From assembly GCA_021286645.1 (NCBI GenBank), contig JAJTBZ010000067.1, forward strand, positions 1-33,312: 33,312 nt of DNA, in the 5' to 3' direction. Positions 203 to 4,955 of this stretch are shown piece by piece. Below the pieces are notes generated by a model. The model saw nothing but the letters and a program-made list of their open reading frames with translations, was not told the DNA's origin and made no database searches. Made by a program: the position numbers and the translations under genes. How positions within the stretch are numbered: position 1 is the stretch's first letter; each line of letters starts with the position of its first letter. This DNA is from Ignavibacteria bacterium (lineage in GTDB: Bacteria > Bacteroidota > Ignavibacteria > Ignavibacteriales > Ignavibacteriaceae).

Positions 203-2482
203 ATGAAAAAGAATTATTTTAGCAAAAACGTAATTGCAGTAAAAATGAACGTATTATTCATTTTAGTCTTAATGGGTTTGTTCATTAGCGTAAATGCACA
301 AACCGGCAAAGTGGTAATAAAGAAAAAAAATAACGGCGGGATTATTACCGTTTCGACAGATTCTGTTAAGAGCATGTCATTCCCGGCTATATCTCAGCAA
401 TATATTAACAACATAAACGGAGGAAATATTATCTCACCGCAGGGTGCAGTTCTGACCATACCGGCAAATGCTCTTCCAACAAGCGGAAATGTATATGTGG
501 GCCGAACGGGCAATGAACCGTTAAGCGTATCAAACAGTAATTTAACACTCGCAGGCTCGCCGGTGACCATAGGACTCCCGGTCAGCGCAATCCAGCAGTC
601 AATAAAATTAACATTTAAGAAACCGGCAATAACAGTTCCGATGGAGAATTACGGATTATTTTTATATAATGGAGAAACATACTATCCGATAGAATATATG
701 CTGTCAGGCGACAGCATAAAAGCAGTAATCGATACAATTAACTGGCAGCCGGCAAAGAAACTATACCGTTCGGGAGCGATAAAAGATCCGCAATTGCTCA
801 CCGAAATAGTGTTGATAGGATTAATAATTAAACAGACGCCGCCGGCAGAGCAGATGGGATTGAAACAAGTGAATGTAGCGCCTTCAGGAGAACTCAGTTT
901 CTCACAGGCAAGCGCGGCGGATACATCAGAGATTCTGTTGCTAATTCATGGCTGGACATCTCAACCGGCCATGTGGAAAACGATGATAAAGAAAATCAGG
1001 CAGCAGGCAGATCCGTCATTAAAAATATGGACATTCGGGTATAACTCGTCATGGAGTATTTCAAGCAACGCAGCTCTACTCGCACAGCAGCTTTCACAAA
1101 GCACGAATGGTGCAAAATTAGATATTATAGCTCATAGTATGGGGGGGCTGGTATCGCGTTCTATGATAGAGGGAAATAACGGAGCGCAATATGTGCAGAG
1201 GCTGATAACGCTTGGTACGCCTCACCGGGGTTCGCCGCTGGGAGCAATCAGGGGATTTCTTGGGCTGATAACTTCACTGCAGGGAGGACTTGGAACCGGC
1301 CTATTATATAATTACTTCACGCAGGGATTCAGGGACTTATATACGAATTCAAGTTATATACAAAGTATGATGAATATGAGTAATCCTTCCCTGCCATATT
1401 ATTTGATTGCAGCGACAAACGATGCGGCGTCATGGTATGCTATGATGATGGAGCCGGTATTGCCGGGACCGGATGACGGGGTTGTCCAGGAGGTAAGCGC
1501 CCGCGGTGTTCCCAATTCGGCCGATGCTTCGACATTTTCCATACCGGTGATAATGGCTCATACTGAAATGCCGGAAAACGGAGCAATATATCAGCAGGTA
1601 ATAAATTACCTAAAACCCCATAAACCTGAATTGGCATCACCGGTAAACGGCGATACTAACCAGACCGTAACGCCGACTTTAAAGTGGAGAAAGAGCCTTG
1701 GAGCGAAAAAGTATTCAGTGCAGGTAGCCAAAGACAGTATTTTTACAAGTGTCGTATTTTCTAAATATGGAATCAGCGATACATTACTGCAGGCAGACAG
1801 CTTAAAGGACAGCACACAATACTATTGGCGGGTAAAATCATATAATGCCTTTGATACAACGAATGCATCGGATACATATTCATTCAGAATAGGAAGTAAA
1901 TCATGCCCCGGTACACCAGTAGTAATATATGCAGGCCAAACATATAATACTGTACAAATAGGAACCCAATGTTGGCTGAAAGAGAACCTGAATGTGGGAA
2001 CAAGAATAAACGGCAGCCAAGATCAGGCGAATAATGGTGTAATAGAGAAATACTGCTATAATGATATTGAATCCAACTGTACCACCTATGGCGGTTTATA
2101 CCAATGGAATGAAGCGATGAAGTATGTAACTACAACAGGAACGCGGGGTATATGCCCGCAAGGGTGGCATATACCAACATATGCGGAGTTTTATACACTC
2201 TTAACGACAGTAAACGGTGATGGAAATGCGCTGAAAGCTATCGGGCAGGGAACAGGTTCAGGTACAGGCAATAACACAAGCGGCTTCTCGGCCTTGCTTG
2301 CGGGCTACCGCAACTACAATGGACTCTTCTACGATTTAGGGAGCAATGCTCTCTTTTGGAGTTCCCCCGAGTATGATTCCGGTTTCGCATTCTTCATGAA
2401 CGTGTACTACTATAACAGCTATGTCTACCTGTACTACAACGGCAAGCAGGTCGGGTTTAGTGTGCGCTGCCTCAAGGATTAG
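203..2482 (+). CDS. Secreted alpha/beta hydrolase with C-terminal FISUMP domain; target protein of a diversity-generating retroelement
   Basis: This 759-residue exported protein begins with a signal peptide (hydrophobic core about residues 16-31, cleavage probably after VNAQ). A lipase-like alpha/beta hydrolase domain spans about residues 235-470. It has an oxyanion-type LIHGW (His249-Gly250), the nucleophile elbow AHSMGG (Ser312), an acid candidate in DDGVV (Asp424/425) and a catalytic His candidate at 453. A fibronectin-III-like domain follows (about 475-565), then a FISUMP (Fib_succ_major) domain from about 569 with QCWLKENLNVG, GICPQGWHIPT and a terminal VRCLKD. Residues 696-758 are encoded by the variable repeat and are rich in Tyr and Phe. 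No T9SS tail follows the FISUMP domain. The hydrolase could be an esterase, a lipase or a PGAP1-like acyl hydrolase; the substrate is unknown. The diversified domain is inferred to be a ligand-binding face. Confidence 0.88.
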   Translation: MKKNYFSKNVIAVKMNVLFILVLMGLFISVNAQTGKVVIKKKNNGGIITVSTDSVKSMSFPAISQQYINNINGGNIISPQGAVLTIPANALPTSGNVYVGRTGNEPLSVSNSNLTLAGSPVTIGLPVSAIQQSIKLTFKKPAITVPMENYGLFLYNGETYYPIEYMLSGDSIKAVIDTINWQPAKKLYRSGAIKDPQLLTEIVLIGLIIKQTPPAEQMGLKQVNVAPSGELSFSQASAADTSEILLLIHGWTSQPAMWKTMIKKIRQQADPSLKIWTFGYNSSWSISSNAALLAQQLSQSTNGAKLDIIAHSMGGLVSRSMIEGNNGAQYVQRLITLGTPHRGSPLGAIRGFLGLITSLQGGLGTGLLYNYFTQGFRDLYTNSSYIQSMMNMSNPSLPYYLIAATNDAASWYAMMMEPVLPGPDDGVVQEVSARGVPNSADASTFSIPVIMAHTEMPENGAIYQQVINYLKPHKPELASPVNGDTNQTVTPTLKWRKSLGAKKYSVQVAKDSIFTSVVFSKYGISDTLLQADSLKDSTQYYWRVKSYNAFDTTNASDTYSFRIGSKSCPGTPVVIYAGQTYNTVQIGTQCWLKENLNVGTRINGSQDQANNGVIEKYCYNDIESNCTTYGGLYQWNEAMKYVTTTGTRGICPQGWHIPTYAEFYTLLTTVNGDGNALKAIGQGTGSGTGNNTSGFSALLAGYRNYNGLFYDLGSNALFWSSPEYDSGFAFFMNVYYYNSYVYLYYNGKQVGFSVRCLKD
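2286..2480 (+). repeat. DGR variable repeat (VR)
   Basis: This 195-nt 3' end of the hydrolase/FISUMP gene aligns over its whole length with 3051-3244. Shared anchors are TCTCGGCC at the 5' end, CTTTTGGAGTTC in the middle and GGGTTTAGTGTGCG near the 3' end. Where the template has AAC or AAT, this copy mostly has TAC, TTC, CTC, GTC, GGC, AGC, GAT or TAT. Altered residues include 705, 708, 710, 711, 714, 717, 728, 730, 731, 735, 737, 740, 742, 744, 745, 747, 749 and 750. This is the pattern left by adenine-specific mutagenic retrohoming. Confidence 0.9.
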
Positions 2483-2512
2483 ACTATTTGTCAATTTGAC
2501 TATTTTAATTTT

Positions 2513-2527
2513 ACCCCCTTTGGGGGT
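2513..2527 (+). other. GC hairpin 33 nt downstream of the VR
   Basis: The arms ACCCCC and GGGGGT flank a 3-nt TTT loop, followed by TCG, A and a run of seven T. In studied DGRs a GC-rich hairpin or cruciform just downstream of the VR promotes target recognition for retrohoming. The same structure with its T-run could equally be a rho-independent terminator for the target gene, although the T-run starts a few bases after the stem. The sequence alone does not decide between the two. Confidence 0.6.
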
Positions 2528-2548
2528 TCGATTTTTTTGAAAAAAGAT

Positions 2549-2905
2549 ATGAGCTTAACTGAAGAATTGCCGGTATACAAAGCAAGTTACGACTTGCCGT
2601 TTTTCATTTTTAATATTGCAAAGAACTTTCAGAAAGATTATAAATGCACTATTGGCGAGAGTTAAAAAAATGAAGTGGTATCTATGGTGACGAATATATA
2701 TCGTGCAAACAGCAGCCGGGAAATGAGCGTTCACTTAGGCTTGGCGCGCGAATCTTTGGAAGTTGTCAGGCTCTATGTGCGTTTGTTAAAGGATTTGCAC
2801 CAGATTAACGTGAAACAACTTGCGGCAATAACCGTCCATATCGAAAATATATCGAAACAATTAACGGGGTGGCAAAAATCGGTTAGGCAAAAAGAAAATA
2901 ATTGA
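2549..2905 (+). pseudogene. avd: DGR accessory variability protein Avd, interrupted by an in-frame stop
   Basis: From ATG 2549 the frame reads MSLTEELPVYKASYDLPFF and continues to CTIGES, then a TAA at 2663-2665, then KNEVVSMVTNIYRANSS through KQLTGWQKS to the stop at 2903-2905. Both halves are in the same frame, giving 118 codons, the usual length of Avd-type four-helix-bundle proteins. Family features are LPVYKASYDL at the N-terminus, IYRANSS in the middle and a basic C-terminus. In family members the stop position is usually Leu in a GEKLKNE-like segment, so one T-to-A change (TTA to TAA) explains the lesion. Avd binds the reverse transcriptase and template RNA and is needed for retrohoming. 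A shorter product from GTG 2675 or ATG 2684 would lack the first helix. Confidence 0.85.
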
Positions 2906-3050
2906 ACGGCAGTAAATGAAGAAAGTAGCGAGAGTCATTTTTTGTTACGGCAAAAATGAGAGAGCTGATCAATCCAACAACCCGCCCCTTGCAAAAGGAG
3001 CAATGTTAAGCTGTATTGAAAAAATTCAGCGAATAAAGCGGTTGTTTACA

Positions 3051-3244
3051 TCTCGGCCCTGCTTGCGGCTACTGCAACAACAATGGAAACTTCAACAATT
3101 TAGGAAACAACGCTAACTTTTGGAGTTCTTCCGAGTATGACGCCGGTAACGCAAACAACATGAACCTGAACTACAATGACAGTAATGTCAACTTGAACAA
3201 CAACAACAAGGAAAACGGGTTTAGTGTGCGTTGCCTGAAGGATT
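3051..3244 (+). repeat. DGR template repeat (TR), non-coding
   Basis: This 194-nt copy of the VR lies between avd and the RT remnant and is not in a credible reading frame. It is very rich in AAC and AAT triplets: about 22 of the 49 triplets aligned to VR codons 2-50. These are the adenines that become random bases in the cDNA. It lacks one G found in the VR near its 5' end. About 14 substitutions lie outside template adenines, including two in the 3' anchor. Those indicate drift since the last retrohoming event. The order target-avd-TR-RT and the 33-nt TR-RT spacing match canonical cassettes. Confidence 0.9.
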
Positions 3245-3277
3245 TATATACGATACTGCCGTTCATTTTAATATGTT

Positions 3278-3418
3278 ATGGATATTAAACTTTTAGAAGA
3301 TTTATTTTATGCATATTTTGAGGTGCGCAAGAATAAAAGAAATACGCCAAGCGCCCTTGCATTCGAAATTGATTATGAATCGAATCTTTTTCGTTTATGG
3401 GAAGACATTGAAAAATAG
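3278..3418 (+). pseudogene. DGR reverse transcriptase, N-terminal fragment only
   Basis: ATG 3278 opens a 46-codon frame, MDIKLLEDLFYAYFEVRKNK, continuing RNTPSALAFEIDYESNLF and ending RLWEDIEK before TAG 3416-3418. This matches the N-terminus of DGR reverse transcriptases: a helix with LxxLxxAYxxxRxxKR, then a conserved Phe-Glu and a L-x-x-L-x-x-E/D-L/I segment just before the fingers domain. Everything after it, including the catalytic YxDD region, is missing. The next bases encode an unrelated transposase in another frame. The rest of the RT is not found anywhere between here and the tmRNA. The loss is probably an IS-mediated deletion, but an assembly join at a repeated IS is an alternative. 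Confidence 0.8.
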
Positions 3419-3419
3419 A

Positions 3420-3857
3420 TCTTATGAAATAGCGCCGAGTTATTGTCCGATGGGACAGGCAATGAGCTTCATTGGAGAGCGGAAGCGCAAAACAGCAACC
3501 GGATATTTGCAACTATCACGTCTGTATCAGGCAGTGAATTGTCAGGGATGCCCGTTGCGTGGAGCCTGTCATACGGGTAAGTCCAATCGGGTGATCGAAG
3601 TAAACGGAAAATTAAACAGATATCGTAAACAAGCAGAGGATCTGCTGACCAGCGAAAAGGGAATTGCCTTCAGGAAAAGACGTTGCTGTGAACCGGAGCC
3701 GGTATTTGGGAATATGAAACAGAACAAGGGGTTCAAACGCTTCTCTCTGAAAGGCCGACTGAAGGTTGCTATCGAAACAGGTTTGGTGTTTTTGGCTCAT
3801 AACATCAAGCGGGCTGTTGTTCTGGGTTATAGAACACCGGCGTTCCAGGTGAGCTAA
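3420..3857 (+). pseudogene. IS1182-family transposase, C-terminal fragment
   Basis: About 145 residues match the end of IS1182-type DDE transposases. They include CPMGQAM, a cysteine pair region NCQGCPLRGACH, the segment with the third catalytic acidic residue EPVFGNMKQNKGFKRF, and the closing LAHNIKR. Full-length family members have roughly 450-550 residues, so about two thirds, including the first two catalytic Asp residues, is gone. The frame stays open upstream to 3309 only by chance, overlapping the RT remnant. The junction with RT sequence falls near 3410-3425. No left terminal repeat is visible there. The fragment cannot be an active transposase. Confidence 0.85.
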
Positions 3858-4023: not shown

Positions 4024-4036
4024 ATAAAGATCTTTG

Positions 4037-4388
4037 TGGAGGTGGCGGGAGTCGAACCCGCGTCCGAAGAAAGGACCCTGTAAACATCTACGATACGTAG
4101 TCTGTCTTTTAATCTCGTACTTAAAAACTCCGGCAAACAGGATTTCTTAAATACCATCCGGTTAAGTGTTTTGCCTCTTCTACCCGGCTCTCAATTTGGC
4201 TATCTCATCAAAACGACGTTTCTTCCTTAACCGATGAGCAAACTAAGGAGAAACGGCTGCTTTAATTAAGCAGCGAGGGCGTAATTAGATTCGCCAATTA
4301 ATGTTTTTCCGACTTTTTAGCGTGCTTTCGGAGAACACGGTACGCCATTTACAGATTCACTGACCCCGTCGAAACCAATTTCACCCCC
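4037..4388 (-). ncRNA. ssrA: tmRNA (transfer-messenger RNA)
   Basis: The minus-strand transcript starts GGGGGTG, followed by the hallmark TTGGTTTCGACGGGG, and ends in the tRNA-like T arm GGGTTCGACTCCC and CACCTCC plus discriminator A. The 5' GGGGGTG pairs with 3' CACCTCC with one G-U pair. CCA is not fully encoded (ACAA follows), so it must be added after transcription. The length of about 352 nt is normal for a one-piece tmRNA. With SmpB it rescues stalled ribosomes and tags the unfinished protein. The tag frame is listed separately. The 3' end of ssrA is a common integration site for mobile DNA, and here it faces the IS/DGR remnant. Confidence 0.95.
4266..4310 (-). other. tmRNA-encoded proteolysis tag
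   Basis: Within the tmRNA, AGTC is followed by resume codon GGA at 4310 and a 14-codon frame GKTLIGESNYALAA ending in TAA (4266-4268). The C-terminal YALAA is the degron read by ClpXP-type proteases. The GE-x-NYALAA core resembles Bacteroidota tags (GETNYALAA, recalled). Compared with those, about five residues (GKTLI) are added in front. Confidence 0.85.
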
Positions 4389-4415
4389 ATGTTATCATGG
4401 GACTTGAAACATGGG

Positions 4416-4955
4416 TTATTTTTCCCAATTTACATCGCTCACGTGCTGAAAGAAATTTTCATACCGGGCGAGGACGAACAATAAGTCTGAAATCCTATTA
4501 ACAAATATAAGGATATTTGGATTGATATTTTCTGTTTTTGAAAGAGTAAATATTTCTCTCTCTGCCCTTCTGCACACAGTTCGCGCAACATGCAAAGCAG
4601 CAGCAGAACGAGTCCCGCCTGGCAGAATAAAATTTGATAATTCCGGAATCTCGATTACAACAGCATCAATATATTCCTCTGCCTTACTAATAGCTTCCTG
4701 GCCAAGCCGATCAATGTGAGAATTTGCCTCAAAGGGAGTTGCCAGGTCGGCACCTGCCACAAACAATGTATTTTGCAGCCAGTTAGTTACCTCACGAGTC
4801 ATTGGAGCAGCGGCATGTACCATCGAGAGCCCTAAGAATGCATTTAATTCATCGATTGAACCATACGCATTCAATCGTTGATGATCTTTTTCAACTCTGC
4901 GCCCGCCAAATAATCCGGTGGTACCGCCATCACCGGTTTTCGTGTAAATTTTCAT
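4416..4955 (-). CDS. Cob(I)alamin adenosyltransferase, PduO type
   Basis: This 179-residue cytosolic enzyme transfers the adenosyl group of ATP to cob(I)alamin to make adenosylcobalamin. The N-terminal KIYTKTGDGGTTGLF forms the ATP-binding loop. RLNAYGSIDELNAFLG, LPGGTRSAAALHVAR-TVCRRAERE and NRISDLLFVLARYEN are the other conserved blocks of the PduO/MMAB family, including the Arg and Asp that fix ATP and the corrin. Length is normal. Its ATG overlaps the stop of the upstream YgfZ-like gene (TAATG), so the two are translationally coupled. It is followed at once by the tmRNA gene on the same strand. No cobalamin riboswitch is seen upstream. Confidence 0.93.
   Translation of the reverse strand: MKIYTKTGDGGTTGLFGGRRVEKDHQRLNAYGSIDELNAFLGLSMVHAAAPMTREVTNWLQNTLFVAGADLATPFEANSHIDRLGQEAISKAEEYIDAVVIEIPELSNFILPGGTRSAAALHVARTVCRRAEREIFTLSKTENINPNILIFVNRISDLLFVLARYENFFQHVSDVNWEK

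Follow-up and report, generated by a model that had tools for sequence, protein, structure and literature searches.

A probably dead diversity-generating retroelement behind a FISUMP-domain hydrolase gene in an Ignavibacteria genome, with signs of repeated machinery loss among related loci

Inactivated diversity-generating retroelements (DGRs) and the targets they leave behind are already in print, in passages of PMC3521204 and PMC4891356. Parts of the DiGReF survey (PMC3521204) describe reverse transcriptases (RTs) inactivated by nonsense mutations, frameshifts or an insertion element, with the variable repeat (VR) and template repeat (TR) still there; these pairs carried adenine changes only and were judged very recent, random changes being what the authors expected in an inactivated DGR, and Figure 4D of the same survey includes full-length RTs with several non-adenine changes. 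Sections of PMC4891356 report Treponema denticola isolates that keep adenine-varied targets without RT and TR, and a portion of PMC8144416 calls DGRs inactive from VR variant enrichment in metagenomes. Here we describe a cassette, C5, in a 33,312-nt stretch of DNA (the window; contig JAJTBZ010000067.1 of an Ignavibacteria bacterium), together with a second cassette, C26, on contig C26 (L012) of the same draft genome (3.72 Mb, 99.02% complete, 108 contigs). Its sequence makes C5 very probably a dead DGR, that is, a DGR by descent but not an active one. What seems to be new is the aged and doubly dead state in one genome, a graded series of relatives in Ignavibacteriota, and recurrent loss across phyla with the target kept. 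We found no paper joining FISUMP with a DGR in a literature collection short of most subscription journals, and some of the literature searches brought up mainly unrelated papers, which makes them weak evidence of absence.

All parts of C5 lie on the forward strand. The target gene (203–2482) encodes 759 aa, with a signal-like N-terminus, an alpha/beta-hydrolase part and a C-terminal FISUMP (Fib_succ_major) domain. The VR (2286–2480, 195 nt) sits at the 3' end of this open frame, and closes on the opening base of the target's stop codon. Next come the first 38 codons of avd (2549–2665), closed by an in-frame stop at 2663–2665, the rest of avd in the same frame (2666–2902), the TR (3051–3244, 194 nt, one base shorter than the VR; both repeats were placed by local alignment) and, 33 nt 3' of the TR, the first 46 codons of a DGR RT (3278–3418), which end in a stop where the homology changes frame. 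A sequence-only reading of the window had placed the repeats, the Avd frame, its stop and the RT start in this way and had recognised the DGR order of target VR, avd, TR and RT; every part is where it was said to be, and an intact relative, L043, has the same order.

The two C5 repeats differ at 40 of 194 aligned columns, with one 1-nt gap in the TR. Mismatches fall on 26 of 65 TR adenines but on only 14 of 129 other TR bases (Fisher's exact test, 4.5e-6). Read in reverse, only 1 of 40 VR adenines is changed, so the direction from TR to VR is clear. By position in the target codon, the 26 adenine-site changes divide into 16 first, eight second and two third. The 1-nt deletion in the C5 TR is absent from six other aligned repeats (the C5 VR, the VR and TR of C26, the VR and TR of the intact relative, and the VR of G001, a relative in the same genus). 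When used as a query against the whole genome, the TR found the VR at E 3.1e-41, which makes a chance repeat negligible, and it matched four places in 3.72 Mb, namely the C5 pair and the C26 pair. The genome does hold several FISUMP domains (six above cut-off), as a plain duplication of a FISUMP 3' end might call for, but the adenine-biased mismatches, the Avd and RT matches, and the same order of parts in an intact relative refute that explanation, and we give chance or duplication practically no credence. The adenine bias holds in C5, in C26 and in their relatives. The sequence-only reading had named two outcomes that would count against it, fragments without DGR profile matches and VR–TR differences without adenine bias in relatives; neither was observed, the fragments matching DGR-related profiles or proteins.

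The machinery of C5 is recognisable but broken. Searched alone, the second part of avd matched the PHROG family "Avd protein of DGR" (phrog_3206) at E 5.8e-15, the bAvd profile at E 2.2e-9 (38.2 bits, just under the cut-off of 40) and the NCBIfam model DivGenRetAVD at E 3.5e-8 (33.7 bits, under the cut-off of 80). The first part alone matched the same PHROG family (E 0.012) but nothing in Pfam or NCBIfam. C5 avd is 76–77% identical to the intact avd of C26 and carries one TAA. The RT fragment (3278–3415) gave no match to Pfam, NCBIfam or PADLOC models; it matched phrog_1423 "Reverse transcriptase" at E 5.2e-5, is 70% identical over 44 residues to the intact RT of L043, and matched 13 phage records at 44–49%. 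Only the N-terminus is left, and the region of the (I/V/L)GxxxSQ motif, which the matched relative's RT has, lies beyond it. A close phage donor was rejected, given that level of identity; when viral contigs were searched with the RT of the relative, 18 loci came up, with 37% identity over the longest match and 57% over short pieces.

The sequence-only reading was right that the RT is truncated, but the homology does not end at 3418: it runs on out of frame (3419–3439) to about residue 54, where it gives way to the tail of an IS1182-family transposase. This C-terminal part (3441–3857) is fused to the RT remnant and matched PF13751 at E 1.5e-31 and NF033551 under its cut-off. We rejected the idea that it is a piece of a multi-copy element, as it is single in the genome. 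A frameshift and a deletion joining the RT to a neighbouring transposase gene would be the simplest account of the RT loss.

The second cassette, C26, comprises a FISUMP target of 251 aa, an avd of 123 aa that is intact and passes the bAvd cut-off (68.3 bits), a TR, and an RT that breaks off after residue 89. Its VR and TR differ at 26 of 65 adenines and at 7 of 130 other bases, although three of these seven non-adenine differences stand directly after a 3-nt indel and may depend on the alignment. The C26 TR encodes Arg where all 42 aligned FISUMP domains (A2, W153) have Trp. The cassette lies near a tRNA-Arg gene (L012:7759–7833). The sequence-only reading had proposed searching the rest of the genome for another DGR RT, and none was found: the profile search of the 108-contig draft gave no RVT_1 domain, and a full 394-aa RT query, with E values up to 10, returned just the two N-terminal RT fragments. 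Thus, C5 and C26 are both dead in cis and have no partner RT in the assembled genome; with neither an RVT_1 domain nor an RT C-terminus found, a trans-acting RT in the same genome was rejected.

To place these cassettes, we used a scan of species genomes with an Avd alignment, taking the best 80 of 86 relatives, which with C5 and C26 made 82 loci. Leaving out 20 without a FISUMP 3' end before avd and 13 with less than 2 kb after the avd start, 49 loci remained. The survey genomes include drafts and binned genomes, and some host names may be wrong. Counting a locus as RT-complete when its RT match spanned at least 320 residues, we found 27 RT-complete loci and 22 without a complete RT. Two Gracilibacteria loci (L090 and L095) have RT matches with internal stops under table 11. 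Gracilibacteria read TGA as glycine, so both were counted as RT-complete.

Across the 27 RT-complete cassettes, VR and TR differ at 669 of 1657 adenines but at only 30 of 3447 non-adenine sites. The non-adenine count of C5 is far above this (Fisher's exact test, 1.4e-10), and none of the 27 is as high; that of C26 also stands above the set (3e-4), with one of the 27 as high. The non-adenine sites of the C5 repeats have not been kept near-identical, as would be expected of an active DGR. C5 resembles the inactivated DGRs described in parts of the DiGReF survey in its broken RT and its retained VR and TR; those pairs had adenine changes only, whereas C5 and C26 have non-adenine differences as well. 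Non-adenine divergence between VR and TR serves as an internal mark of age; by this mark, some RT-less loci are young (L085, 2/126; L140, 0/43) and others older (L113, 7/51; L077, 3/46), and two short-flank loci gave 5/78 (L062) and 3/140 (L064). Repeats at L109, L116 and L127, with 40 to 73 non-adenine differences, lie in downstream FISUMP genes, and we read them as paralogous targets rather than TRs.

The survey bears on whether such cassettes could be served from elsewhere. The scan contributed 20 RT-less loci, and the genomes of 13 of them gave no RT match at E <= 0.001. For L085 and L127, the genome's RT matches are the locus's own RT pieces only; for L109, L122 and L130 they are weak (E 2.7e-6 or worse), for L120 moderate (2.1e-26) and for L119 long, with no match to the L119 target seen beside the long RT of its genome. 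Taking together the 31 genomes with scarred or RT-less loci, whose completeness is not stated, an RT match at E <= 0.001 turned up in 13, and in four of these (G085, G064, G072 and G069) it was long. Scarred loci as remote targets were rejected in general: ten locus-to-RT comparisons gave a TR-like match for L098 alone, although L127 and L085 met only themselves and the RT loci were taken with 1.5 kb on either side at most, so that a distant TR would be missed. The L098 DNA, from Parabacteroides, is 95% identical over 193 nt to a region beside a distant RT in the same genome and is likely a remote target. Remote targets served from afar have also been published (in passages of PMC3521204 and PMC4891356), and the avd of C26 is intact, all of which would suit cassettes that are non-autonomous but alive, with an RT supplied in trans from the genome, a phage or a plasmid rewriting the VR from the TR. 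For C5 and C26 we consider this very unlikely. Their own assembled genome has no RT, non-adenine differences between VR and TR have accumulated, and copying either TR should damage the target, given the 1-nt deletion in one and the Arg codon at W153 in the other.

The absence of the RT 3' part from both cassettes, together with the 22 of 49 loci lacking a complete RT, could also mean that the target was transferred or copied here together with the cassette's 5' part but not with the full machinery. The two RT remnants, however, end at different points (residue 89 in C26, about residue 54 in C5), although one shared cut followed by a later second cut in C5 could also give this pattern. Each VR is nearest its own TR (40 mismatches to its own against 47 to the other for C5, and 33 against 46 for C26), which suggests that each target was diversified from its own template. 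An arrival in parts is therefore unlikely in our judgement, and decay in place remains the preferred account.

Relatives in Ignavibacteria fit such decay. Among 59 genomes, our own included, the closest other Avd matches were in G034, of the same family (71% identity, intact), and in G001, of the same genus (69% across residues 1–64, with a stop). G034, Ignavibacteria bacterium CG1_02_37_35 (MNVA01000069.1; L043/L061), supplies the intact copy that the sequence-only reading had suggested looking for: target, VR, avd, TR and a complete RT that carries GNLTSQ, YVDD and PF00078. L043 shares with C5 its order and target domain; it differs in that RT and avd are intact, that VR and TR mismatch at 21 of 69 adenines and only 1 of 128 other bases, and that a transposase-like gene stands between avd and TR. 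Compared with C26, its avd is 70–71% and its RT 72% identical. About 1.2 kb (L043:3793–4971) separates avd from TR there, against about 0.15 kb in C5; the small transposase-like gene, typed by eye, occupies 4405–4869. In G001, Ignavibacteriales NC_groundwater_380, an intact FISUMP target is followed by an avd that runs for 58 codons before its stop, and neither TR nor RT was found. L139, also in Ignavibacteriales, has a target and about 33 avd residues, with the contig ending 1 kb further on. The Ignavibacteriota relatives thus form a graded series from intact cassette to bare avd scar. In a class sample of 391 genomes, which evidently lacked G034 and G001, Avd was matched at E <= 1e-8 in seven, our own included; identity in the remaining six was 29–35%.

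The same pattern extends beyond the class. avd was complete in 26 of the 27 RT-complete loci but in only 2 of the 22 RT-less ones (L116 and C26). The target frame was open to its stop in 22 of 22 RT-less loci, a count that favours intact targets because a locus was admitted only if its FISUMP match reached the domain end, and in which seven frames reach a contig edge upstream and L140 covers only the last part of the domain. In a tree of the targets, RT-complete and RT-less loci are intermixed, with at least 14 state changes (shuffle means 14.1 and 14.4), at least seven of them forced by well-supported branches; this was a quick tree of the FISUMP domain without the VR, covering 42 of 49 loci, the other seven being dropped as their domain match began late. 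The number of state changes alone is blind to loss versus gain, but the remnants point to loss. The FISUMP-Avd cassettes thus appear to have lost their machinery repeatedly, with the target staying on as an ordinary gene. The leftover targets of Treponema denticola differ, as far as the sections of PMC4891356 go, in belonging to one species and in being predicted FGE-sulfatase targets; here avd, TR and RT survive as remnants at the locus, and the pattern crosses phylum borders. The part of PMC8144416 on inactive DGRs likewise recognises some as inactive, but it does so from variant enrichment in otherwise detected DGRs, not from broken RTs.

Besides the admission rule and the indel-adjacent differences in C26, several further observations weigh against dead cassettes with retained targets. 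L099, which is RT-complete, has 11 of 130 non-adenine mismatches, above C26 and making up 11 of the 30 in the whole set, so a high non-adenine count alone is no proof of a dead RT. This locus resembles the full-length RTs with non-adenine changes in DiGReF Figure 4D, to go by that figure; perhaps its TR serves the other of its two FISUMP copies, or something else has inactivated the cassette. The genome of C5 and C26 is a draft, so an RT could conceivably lie in an assembly gap, and C26, whose avd is intact, might in principle be served by an RT arriving from outside. One locus left out for its short flank (L115:4356–5240) has a FISUMP match in two pieces with a stop, that is, a broken-looking target, followed by avd residues 1–80 at the contig edge. 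Finally, the scan started from the Avd N-terminus, so losses beginning at the target end were not sampled. Among the loci seen in passing, L099 is a Patescibacteria cassette with two FISUMP domains in tandem. At L071:1638–1964 there is an apparently intact avd, with no FISUMP target, TR or RT found nearby and a weak RT match in its genome (E 2.3e-4). L079:3–1251 has an Lcl_C/DUF1566-like target (by eye) with an inverted repeat after it and an intact avd, and no RT match in locus or genome.

We then considered the C5 target itself. Its FISUMP domain (PF09603, 1952–2476) was found by profile search at E 6.2e-32, along with alpha/beta-hydrolase matches, so the earlier description of a secreted FISUMP hydrolase stands for domain and enzyme, while secretion is suggested by an N-terminus judged signal-like by eye. 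A portion of PMC8144416 links annotated VR regions to C-type-lectin folds; the target gave a weak match to the Lcl_C profile, and a sequence search gave no PDB relative of the FISUMP domain. When the 14 non-adenine differences were polarised with five other sequences, eight fell to the VR and five to the TR (in addition to the TR deletion), with one unresolved. In a neutral simulation of 759 codons at 0.039 changes per site, the TR drift of 5/129, the probability of meeting no stop was 0.019; at 0.02 per site it was 0.13, and for the FISUMP domain alone 0.36. Since an open 759-codon frame is this rare under neutral drift (0.019), the whole target was likely, though not provably, constrained after inactivation. 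Outside the VR, the C5 and C26 targets have a dN/dS of about 0.10, a rough value because dS, at about 2, is near saturation, and one that also spans the time before inactivation. Their synonymous difference is 0.235 inside the VR against 0.70 outside, in line with resupply of the VR from similar TRs, those of C5 and C26 being 91% identical. The sequence-only reading had taken the frozen VR as a record of what selection retained. Constraint on the whole target is probable, but selection on the hypervariable residues goes beyond the evidence, as the eight VR changes, matched by hand, comprise four synonymous and four nonsynonymous ones, too few for a verdict.

3' of its stop codon, the C5 target has a GC-rich inverted repeat (2513–2527) with a 6-bp stem and a TTT loop, a candidate target-site hairpin. 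BPP-1 needs a hairpin at its target site, according to passages of PMC3240598, and C5 is like it in having a GC-rich inverted repeat soon 3' of the VR; the BPP-1 hairpin described there differs in its stem of 7–10 bp and its GRNA loop. Between stop codon and hairpin lie octads of the form GAYWATTT (2482–2505 in C5). At least one copy occurs in the spacer of 50 of 62 loci with a target, with and without RT, and the mean is 1.2 per locus against about 0.03 in base shuffles; as an AT-rich stretch, they might possibly ease cruciform opening. In many loci, the octad is followed by a GC-rich inverted repeat and then a T run. Inverted repeats stand at like positions in many relatives, with differing stems and with loops of GTAA, GAA, GTA and others, although 15 of 62 loci lack a stem of 5 bp and some stems are AT-rich and may be chance. 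We rejected the octads as a phage signature, a 24-base pattern having 0 matches in viral contigs. In the genome itself, a 13-base pattern occurs at both cassettes only, but a backward control is equally frequent, so we claim no specificity for it.

Around the cassette, a tmRNA gene (4036–4388) lies just past the transposase remnant. The window spans the whole contig, which begins inside a gene whose C-terminal end, type IX sorting-like by eye, occupies 1–192 of the window. This protein resembles the C-terminus of that encoded at L012:6775–7482, which precedes the C26 target, and so the gene order upstream of both targets seems to be shared.

In its working state, as taken over from known DGRs, C5 would have had an RT and Avd that copied a TR transcript while misreading adenines, and the cDNA would then have replaced the VR that closes the hydrolase-FISUMP gene, beside the hairpin past the stop. 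On this model, C5 once worked in the manner for which its sister L043 is built, a deletion into the neighbouring transposase gene removed most of the RT, and selection retained the target after the machinery was lost.

C5 and C26 look the way an inactivated DGR should by the expectation of the DiGReF authors, whose own cases did not show it according to passages of PMC3521204. A search that sets out from a complete RT, or from repeats differing at adenines only, would probably miss such old dead cassettes. The graded series from intact cassette to avd scar makes the rate at which hypermutation is abandoned, the order in which parts are lost, and selection on the last variant testable. Tentatively, and with rather less than even confidence, we suggest that targets in this family are diversified and then fixed: once a useful FISUMP variant is reached, the machinery becomes a liability and is lost, repeatedly and independently, while the target is kept. 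If this is true, many bacterial FISUMP genes would be fixed products of past hypermutation, marked by an avd scar past the stop.

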